Source: Ignavibacteria bacterium (GTDB taxonomy: Bacteria > Bacteroidota > Ignavibacteria > Kapaibacteriales > UBA4661). Taken from it: 64,000 nucleotides of DNA. Position numbers and translations under genes: made by a program. Each line of letters begins with the position of its first letter. The first letter of the stretch is position 1. Under the pieces are notes generated by a model. It had not been told where the DNA came from, made no database searches, and saw only the letters and a program-made list of their open reading frames with translations. Where the stretch lies: the NCBI GenBank assembly GCA_013298775.1, contig JAAFIV010000001.1, positions 186,001-250,000 on the forward strand, in the 5' to 3' direction. Positions 37,583 through 39,368 of the stretch are shown here, piece after piece.

Positions 37583-37614
37583 TCATTGATAAAGAATGCG
37601 GATTAAAAGATAGT

Positions 37615-37740
37615 TTTTGACGCTGATTGGACTGATTTCACTGATAAACGCTGATTTACAAATATGTTAGGCAAAATTAAAACAGTGTTGTATTATCAAA
37701 AAATCTGTGTTCTTCAGTGGAATCAGTCTAATCAGTGTCA
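37615..37740. repeat. Imperfect inverted repeat, GACTGATT-type words
   Basis: CGCTGATTGGACTGATTTCA (near 37621) is mirrored by TCAGTGGAATCAGTCTAATC (near 37714). About 24 bp pair with a few mismatches across a 70-bp loop. It resembles dispersed repeat words rather than a gene. Confidence 0.6.
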
Positions 37741-37799
37741 AAGAAATCAACAACTTGGCTTAACTCTTCATTCGCATAAAGAGTACCTTCTCAAACGAC

Positions 37800-37857
37800 A
37801 ACTCCCGTTCTACGACAGTGATTCTGCTTGGCAGGTACAGCGTAGAACGGGAGTTGT
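37800..37857. terminator. Palindrome with 16-bp stem between convergent genes (family-F related)
   Basis: CAACTCCCGTTCTACG (37800-37815) and CGTAGAACGGGAGTTG (37842-37857) are perfectly complementary. The arm CCCGTTCTACG is the same as in family-F elements. It lies between ridA (+) and the tatD fusion (-) and could terminate both. Confidence 0.6.
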
Positions 37858-37883
37858 TTGTTGTAAGGGTATATTTTCTCGCT

Positions 37884-39368
37884 TTATTTACTTGCGCCGA
37901 ACGACGGAAACCAATACAGCGTAGCTCGCAGCACCGTATAGAGATAGCCCGATTGCTTTACTCTATTGCCATTTCCGTAATCTTTATCGCGCGGAGAAGC
38001 AAAAAAAGCACCGTTTACGTGAAATTCTGCGCCTGGATAAAGTAATCCAAAGGAAGTTGGCACGTTCAGCCCCAGTGAAACAAGTTTTGCATTAAAGCCA
38101 AACCCTGAGCTTGCGTCGGGCGGCGTATCTGGTCCAGCGTTGAAGGTCGTCAGAAGATACGAGGCACCAACACCAAAGCAGACGTTTAAGGTATTTCCAG
38201 GATTGGTGGTAAAATATAATCCCGCATCAATGGCTTGAAATCTATTTGGAAAAGGTTGTGGTGTTGCCCCGCCTGGGATAGGAAGGGTTGGAGCAAAGTT
38301 ATTTCCCGTGTAATAGCCCGCATCAAGCGCAATCACATCGGTAAAATAATACCGCATATTACCGCCATAGATGATTGCTTGCCCAGTGTAAGAAAGCGTC
38401 CCGGAAGGAGTGTGAACGTCAATCAAGGTATGCGTTCCAGCAACTGCGCCGATTCCAAAGGTTTTTGGATAGGGATTCACAAAAGGAACAGGCTTATCGT
38501 CATCGTCGTCATCGTTTTGTGCAAATGCAGTCTGCGTAGCACCAAACGCCATGCAAGAAAAAAGCAATGCAACGAGTATTTGTGCAACATTGCCGCCCGA
38601 AATACGTGTTGGAATGCGGAAAAATTCGTGTGCTGTCGCGCTCGTTGTAGCAAAAACATTTTCGAGGCTCATGGAGCGAATTTCTGCAATTTTCTCCGCC
38701 ACAAGCCGCACAAATGCTGGTTCATTGCGCTTACCGCGATGCGGCACTGGCGACATATACGGCGCGTCGGTTTCAATCATCAATTTATCCATAGGAACAG
38801 AAGCAACAGTTTCAGAAAGAGTGGATGCTTTGAAGGTAATATTTCCAGTAAATGAGACATGAAAGCCAAGTTTGACGGCGCGTTCAGCCTGTTCGGGTGT
38901 GCCAGAGAAGCAGTGTAGCACGCCACGCAAGCTCCCGTCTTGTTCCTCGTCCAGAATGCGCATCATATCGTCGTCCGACTCACGATTATGCACAATCACG
39001 GGCAAATTCCGTCGCTTGGCAATACGCAATTGTGCGCGAAACACGTCCTGCTGCACATCACGCGGCGCGAAATCGTAGTGATAATCCAACCCAATCTCGC
39101 CAATGGCTTGTACGCGCTCGGAAAAACTCAAATCTTCTACCTGACGGAGCGCATCACTACTCGCTTCTAAGGCATGGTGTGGGTGAATACCCATTCCGCA
39201 GAAAATACGTTCATCGGAGCGCACCACGCCTAACACGGATTGGAAGCGCGTCGGTTCAATTGCGGGAATAATCAAATGCGTCAGACCGCCTGCAAATGCT
39301 CGCTCAATCGTTGCAGCGCGGTCGTTATCGAATTGCTTGTTGTCAATATGACAATGAGTGTCAATCAT
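37884..39368 (-). CDS. TatD-type metal-dependent DNase fused in frame to an outer-membrane beta-barrel protein
   Basis: 494 residues from ATG 39366-39368. Residues 1-260 are a complete TatD hydrolase: metal motif MIDTHCHID, GIHPHHA, AIGEIGLDYHYD, HNRESDDD, HCFSGT and IETDAPYMSP, ending where TatD proteins normally end (LENVFATTSATAHEFF). With no stop codon, the frame continues into a signal-peptide-like stretch (QILVALLFSCMAFGATQTAFA), an Asp run (NDDDDDDKP) and about 205 residues of alternating strands typical of an 8-stranded barrel (GAVAGTHTLIDVHTPSG to VLRATLYWFPSF). No ATG, GTG or TTG precedes the hydrophobic stretch in this frame. Either the second gene lost its start and stop boundary, or one indel or assembly error fuses two genes. 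Confidence 0.8.
   Translation of the reverse strand: MIDTHCHIDNKQFDNDRAATIERAFAGGLTHLIIPAIEPTRFQSVLGVVRSDERIFCGMGIHPHHALEASSDALRQVEDLSFSERVQAIGEIGLDYHYDFAPRDVQQDVFRAQLRIAKRRNLPVIVHNRESDDDMMRILDEEQDGSLRGVLHCFSGTPEQAERAVKLGFHVSFTGNITFKASTLSETVASVPMDKLMIETDAPYMSPVPHRGKRNEPAFVRLVAEKIAEIRSMSLENVFATTSATAHEFFRIPTRISGGNVAQILVALLFSCMAFGATQTAFAQNDDDDDDKPVPFVNPYPKTFGIGAVAGTHTLIDVHTPSGTLSYTGQAIIYGGNMRYYFTDVIALDAGYYTGNNFAPTLPIPGGATPQPFPNRFQAIDAGLYFTTNPGNTLNVCFGVGASYLLTTFNAGPDTPPDASSGFGFNAKLVSLGLNVPTSFGLLYPGAEFHVNGAFFASPRDKDYGNGNRVKQSGYLYTVLRATLYWFPSFGASK

Follow-up and report, generated by a model that had tools for sequence, protein, structure and literature searches.

A single open frame in an Ignavibacteria bacterium joins a TatD nuclease, a signal-peptide-like stretch, and a predicted outer-membrane β barrel. 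The frame lies within the 64,000-nucleotide stretch of contig JAAFIV010000001.1 analyzed here (the window). We favor, at a probability of about 0.65, a reading drawn from sequence comparison in which one gene with one stop codon would yield two proteins: a read-through precursor comprising both halves and, in most of the order, a barrel initiated at a nested, Shine-Dalgarno-led start.

Architecture of the Fused Gene

The gene occupies 37884–39368 on the minus strand, as do its parts described below, and comprises 494 codons and a stop. The AlphaFold2 model of the whole protein (mean pLDDT 90.8) consists of a TatD domain (residues 1–252; 38613–39368), a lone helix (residues 260–278; 38535–38591), and eight strands (residues 304–488; 37905–38459). 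The initial annotation, which described an in-frame fusion uninterrupted by a stop, is borne out: the TatD profile is complete and is followed in the same open frame by a signal-like stretch and a barrel.

Residues 2–250 match PF01026 (TatD_DNase) over its length at 276 bits, against a cut-off of 27, and the TatD half matches TIGR00010 at 258 bits, against a cut-off of 206. Its model superimposes on the solved structure 2gzx with a Z of 41.1 and an rmsd of 1.0 over 251 residues, corresponding to a TIM-barrel fold. Six residues that we take to be the metal-binding residues of TatD (H5, H7, E91, H127, H152, and D201) are invariant in all 92 aligned fused proteins. By profile, residues, and modeled fold, this half is a complete TatD nuclease, with nuclease activity predicted. 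A search of the host genome yielded no TatD other than this fused one, and so no second copy able to relieve it.

Modeled alone, the barrel half forms a well-formed eight-stranded structure (pLDDT 89.4) that resembles, among the matches listed, NspA (1p4t; Z 17.6, rmsd 2.2 over 151 residues), OmpA (1bxw; Z 16.5, rmsd 3.1 over 161), and OmpW. On these models it is an eight-stranded outer-membrane protein, its location in that membrane being predicted. The fold is common to OmpA/NspA/OmpW-type barrels, from which the window barrel differs in having no sequence match in the PDB and no match to any Pfam family; PF13505 picks up 19 of the 88 barrels that were aligned.

In eight close pairs, dN/dS is 0.05–0.12 for TatD (residues 1–230), 0.00–0.31 for the signal and linker, and 0.02–0.10 for the barrel; both TatD and the barrel are under purifying selection. 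The barrel value weighs against the idea that this half is a never-exported remnant, tolerated as a tail on TatD, for which we find nothing beyond the fusion itself. As the signal and its site are also conserved, and the eight-stranded model is well formed, we regard such a remnant as extremely improbable.

Between the fused gene and a RidA gene lies an interspersed repeat (37595–37760) that matches 39 places in the host genome; nine of the matches, the window copy included, are ∼159–167 bases long at 86%–100% identity, and there are inverted sub-copies. A single-copy inverted repeat (37784–37871), with two 31-nt arms that are 81% complementary and 26 nt apart, lies between convergent genes and is possibly a two-way terminator.

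A Predicted Signal Peptide Joins the Two Halves

Codons 233–252 (38613–38672) form the end of TatD and, putatively, the beginning of the signal peptide of the barrel together with its n-region. The first of them is an in-frame ATG (Met233; 38670–38672), a candidate internal start 51 residues before the predicted cleavage site, so the earlier statement that no start codon precedes the signal stretch does not hold. The lone helix is hydrophobic and corresponds to the h-region of the predicted signal peptide. It is followed by a predicted signal peptidase I site, AFA↓Q (38517–38528), with the cut between residues 283 and 284, and then by an acidic linker (residues 284–303; 38460–38519). The computed masses, 54.0 kDa for the full-length product and 22.6 kDa for the barrel after cleavage, are close to the 54 and 20 kDa first suggested.

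A hydrophobic run followed by small-x-A/S-Q is found in 110 of 123 fused genes, compared with 25 of 2,460 shuffled junctions. At the motif level this stretch is a cleavable signal peptide, N-terminal in the one genome (G009) in which the halves are separate genes, and elsewhere an internal signal with an A-x-A site, as a polyprotein would carry. Counted from the internal ATG, the signal peptide has an ordinary median length of 30 residues; that of the window would have 51.

From the cut site to the first strand motif there are mostly 18–40 residues in the 98 genes in which the motif was found, with a minimum of 12 in family f2. The periplasm is too wide for such short linkers to bridge the inner and outer membranes, so the barrel would have to be freed, either by cutting or by separate initiation. 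Linker length thus rules out an envelope-spanning uncut fusion. A single uncut protein, in which a cytoplasmic TatD is tethered to the barrel, is very unlikely even though the frame is unbroken between the halves in 113 genomes of the order; the A-x-A↓Q site is conserved, and one relative has the halves apart. The initial annotation had called a single product topologically odd. This overstates the matter, since nothing is out of the ordinary in a cytoplasmic domain that precedes a segment crossing the inner membrane with its C-terminal end facing out; the unusual feature is that what lies outside is an outer-membrane barrel in need of release.

The Fused Frame Is Conserved across the Order

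Matches were obtained in 120 of 123 genomes of the order, the nearest named records being Candidatus Kapaibacterium and Ignavibacteria assemblies, and in all ten genomes of the window's family, nine of which have the fusion. TatD and a long C-terminal part share one frame in 113 of the 123, and in one genome, G009, the halves are separate genes. The remaining nine were not judged, either because TatD is cut by contig ends (G035, G054, and G079) or because there is no usable locus (G027, G060, G065, G068, G083, and G113); fragments from two of them (L127 from G065 and L130 from G079) show the TatD-signal junction.

An assembly or sequencing error, with a base lost near 38570–38600 as first suspected, is a negligible prospect: no support for it was found, and independent assemblies from ten of the order's families, including the named records L002–L004, keep the same open frame, as do two further families of the class. 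On this comparison the fused frame is real and conserved. An out-of-frame start combined with slippage at the T run appears unlikely, as the frame-shifted ORF (38477–38659) ends within the region. The proposal of an internal ribosome entry near this poly-T run fares better in its first part, internal entry being supported by the start-site signals described below, than in its second, as we found nothing tying the run to any function.

Twenty further genes picked from the class comprise ten TatD-signal-barrel fusions, which are all ten of the genes examined from families f13 and f19, six fusions of TatD to a radical SAM domain, and four TatDs alone. All 40 additional TatDs, 33 from outside the class and seven from its other families, stand alone, in a survey that dropped TatD matches beginning after query residue 3. 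A barrel profile matches 121 of the 123 fused proteins, missing L097, which is cut, and L136; its input comprised L021 and 87 of the fused proteins, and these match by construction, whereas families f4 and f19 are absent from it. In five f19 fusions (L135, L136, L139, L140, and L142), a long Lys/Glu/Gln-rich stretch, probably a coiled coil, lies between the cut site and the barrel. Fusions to a radical SAM domain occur in other families of the class (L007, L143–L145, L147, L148, and L150), and TatD seems prone to C-terminal fusion there.

In G009, TatD has its own stop just before upp, and a homologous barrel elsewhere in the genome carries its own N-terminal signal peptide. This barrel may be a strict ortholog; its best matches are the f8 and f5 barrels (∼36%), with those of f1-g2 at 33%. 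The initial annotation had proposed looking for such separate genes in relatives, and the arrangement in this one fits the expectation, on sequence grounds, that the stretch in the middle is a genuine signal peptide and that the two proteins can function apart. The upp gene, encoding uracil phosphoribosyltransferase, is present at the fused locus in many families (L003, L014–L019, L020, L022, and others).

A quick tree gathers the fused TatDs of families f1–f10 and f19 into one group (SH-aLRT 96) that has the split G009 within it, and sets those of f13 apart, without support; the fusion may have arisen once or twice. An ancestral pair of neighboring tatD and barrel genes was rejected as a source, no barrel match being found in 50 stand-alone loci, most with a few hundred bases to ∼1 kb downstream.

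A Candidate Internal Start Site in Most of the Order

The ends of the TatD proteins were aligned after identical proteins and TatDs cut by contig ends had been dropped. At column 241, 64 of the 123 fused proteins have Met, and few have the residues common there in stand-alone TatDs (I, L, and V). Where column 241 is not Met, an ATG often lies at 233, 239, or 240; overall, its position varies among columns 233, 235, 237–241, 247, and 248. An ATG within columns 230–248 is present in 115 of 123 fused genes, in seven of 50 stand-alone TatDs (a set that includes the TatD of G009), and in none of 13 radical-SAM-fused TatDs. Where there were several, this count used the ATG with the best Shine-Dalgarno sequence, and the per-genus analyses used the last. 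Elsewhere in the tatD part of the fused genes, the number of genes with an ATG runs from 6 to 97 of 123 depending on the segment, conserved Met residues probably accounting for the high values. Since other segments reach 97, the ATG count alone is unconvincing; it is the Shine-Dalgarno context that convinces.

With one gene taken per genus, and four fused genes cut at a contig end excluded (L068, L089, L095, and L097), an ATG falls within columns 230–250 in 52 of 54 genera. A Shine-Dalgarno core lies 4–10 nt upstream, mostly 8–9 nt, in 35 of these 52 (for example, GAGGAGGTTATTAGA-ATG in L079 and CAGGAGGTTTTTACC-ATG in L018) and is lacking in 17. Such a core is far rarer at the remaining in-frame ATGs of these genes, with eight of 205 (Fisher p 9e-23), and at tatD starts, with five of 54. 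In these per-genus statistics, related genera are not independent samples.

The Shine-Dalgarno energy at the internal ATG is on average 2.63 kcal stronger than a synonymous-codon null (Wilcoxon p 4e-8). No excess is seen in the same test at other ATGs of the same genes (+0.27; n = 205) or at homologous places in unfused TatDs (−0.06 to +0.43). Stand-alone TatDs have a fairly strong Shine-Dalgarno-like stretch before column 241 (mean −4.64) because of their protein sequence, so only the synonymous control separates fused from unfused genes. The Shine-Dalgarno excess resides in codon choice, not in protein sequence.

Synonymous change is slowed at the same place. In columns 228–241, the synonymous rate is 0.42 of the tatD average (95% bootstrap 0.24–0.60, 17 pairs) in fused genes outside f1, f2, and f4, most of which have their ATG at 241, and 0.72 (0.57–0.79, six pairs) in f4, with ATG 233. 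There is no slowing in unfused TatDs (0.93, 0.79–1.10, 27 pairs) or in f2, which lacks the ATG (1.12, three pairs). An intact anti-Shine-Dalgarno sequence was found at the 16S 3′ end in 22 of 122 genomes, none from the window's family; since the 16S pattern used itself contains that sequence, the result establishes no more than its presence in the order, and genomes without a match may lack a 16S gene or differ. Taken together, an in-frame internal ATG with a Shine-Dalgarno sequence occurs in the order and in fused relatives, and a nested site in the same frame probably serves to start the barrel in most of the order.

The Window's Own Genus and Family f2

For the window itself, the two-start half of this explanation is not supported by the sequence. 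ATG 233 is present in seven of eight genes of its genus, and in the window it has a Shine-Dalgarno energy of 0. In the eighth, L019, the internal-start region has no ATG, GTG, or TTG. The synonymous rate in columns 228–241 shows no clear dip in this genus (0.86, 0.70–1.26, only four pairs). Taken together, the genes of the window give no sign of Shine-Dalgarno use (18% of 34, compared with 19% of 26 controls), so the Shine-Dalgarno test is weak there and ATG 233 could still serve. To judge from these signals, the barrel in the window's genus must come from precursor cleavage, from weak initiation at codon 233, or from both; the missing Shine-Dalgarno sequence and the lack of a usual start in L019 make cleavage the likelier source.

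These observations bear on a simpler scheme, in which a single long precursor would insert into the inner membrane by its signal and be split by signal peptidase I, with no internal start used. It is the best reading for the window's own genus, with neither Shine-Dalgarno sequence nor clear synonymous constraint, and it agrees with the missing start in L019, the absence of any internal ATG in family f2, and the signal and cleavage motif that 110 of 123 genes retain. However, it leaves the ATG enrichment, the Shine-Dalgarno excess, and the synonymous dip in most of the order unexplained, and we consider it rather unlikely as the full account.

Discussion

In the two-protein reading that we prefer, a ribosome starting at tatD would continue into the barrel and produce a TatD-signal-barrel precursor; with no stop between the halves, this long reading is unavoidable, the open frame being observed and its product predicted. 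In most of the order, a second ATG in the same frame, led by a Shine-Dalgarno sequence and lying in the last 10–20 tatD codons, would start the barrel; here the start-site signals are observed and initiation at them is putative. The short form would then begin with a normal signal peptide, ∼30 residues long, in which the last helix of TatD doubles as the positively charged n-region. Signal peptidase I would cut both forms at the observed A-x-A↓Q motif, whereupon the barrel would pass to the outer membrane, and the TatD of the long form, left with a hydrophobic tail, would probably be held at the inner membrane.

Because both readings share a frame, tatD could not acquire a stop codon without cutting the barrel short; this would account for a fusion locked across the order. 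We tentatively extend this argument, at somewhat less than even odds, to an order trapped by its same-frame overlap: TatD, a nuclease that is normally soluble, would be made only as a precursor and, after cleavage, would stay tethered to the inner membrane by the used signal peptide, and a single set of codons would encode both the final helix of the enzyme and, for the barrel, a start site and the n-region of a signal peptide.

We found no report of a TatD-barrel fusion in the open-access literature. The closest arrangement within the class is the TatD-radical SAM fusion, which likewise has a long in-frame C-terminal partner on TatD; unlike the barrel, this partner comes without a signal stretch, and no internal ATG lies at the end of its TatD. 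In the cytochrome b/c1 polyprotein (fbcH) of Bradyrhizobium, signal peptidase cuts at an internal signal, so that, as proposed here, two proteins arise from one frame. In that case both parts belong to one inner-membrane complex, whereas a soluble nuclease and an outer-membrane barrel have no known joint work. Nested genes with a common stop, in the same frame and with an internal start as here, are outlined for the two-polypeptide endolysins of phages (PMC9430671) and for N-terminal proteoform pairs of Salmonella (PMC11005335); alternative starts in the latter tend toward a stronger Shine-Dalgarno context, as in the fused tatD genes. In both systems, as outlined in those reports, the short product is a portion of the longer protein itself, whereas here it would be a different protein with a signal peptide of its own and another compartment as its destination, and two unrelated proteins would be joined in the long form.

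If true, the two-protein reading would provide a deep, clade-wide case of one frame serving two unrelated proteins destined for different compartments, with codons under three demands, those of an enzyme helix, a ribosome binding site, and a signal peptide. Natural experiments are at hand in the lineages whose internal start is strong, in those that lack it (f2 and the window's genus), and in the one that has the genes apart; they would test whether a folded cytoplasmic enzyme placed before a signal sequence permits natural export and cleavage. Annotation of these genes as plain "TatD" would overlook an outer-membrane protein throughout the order.
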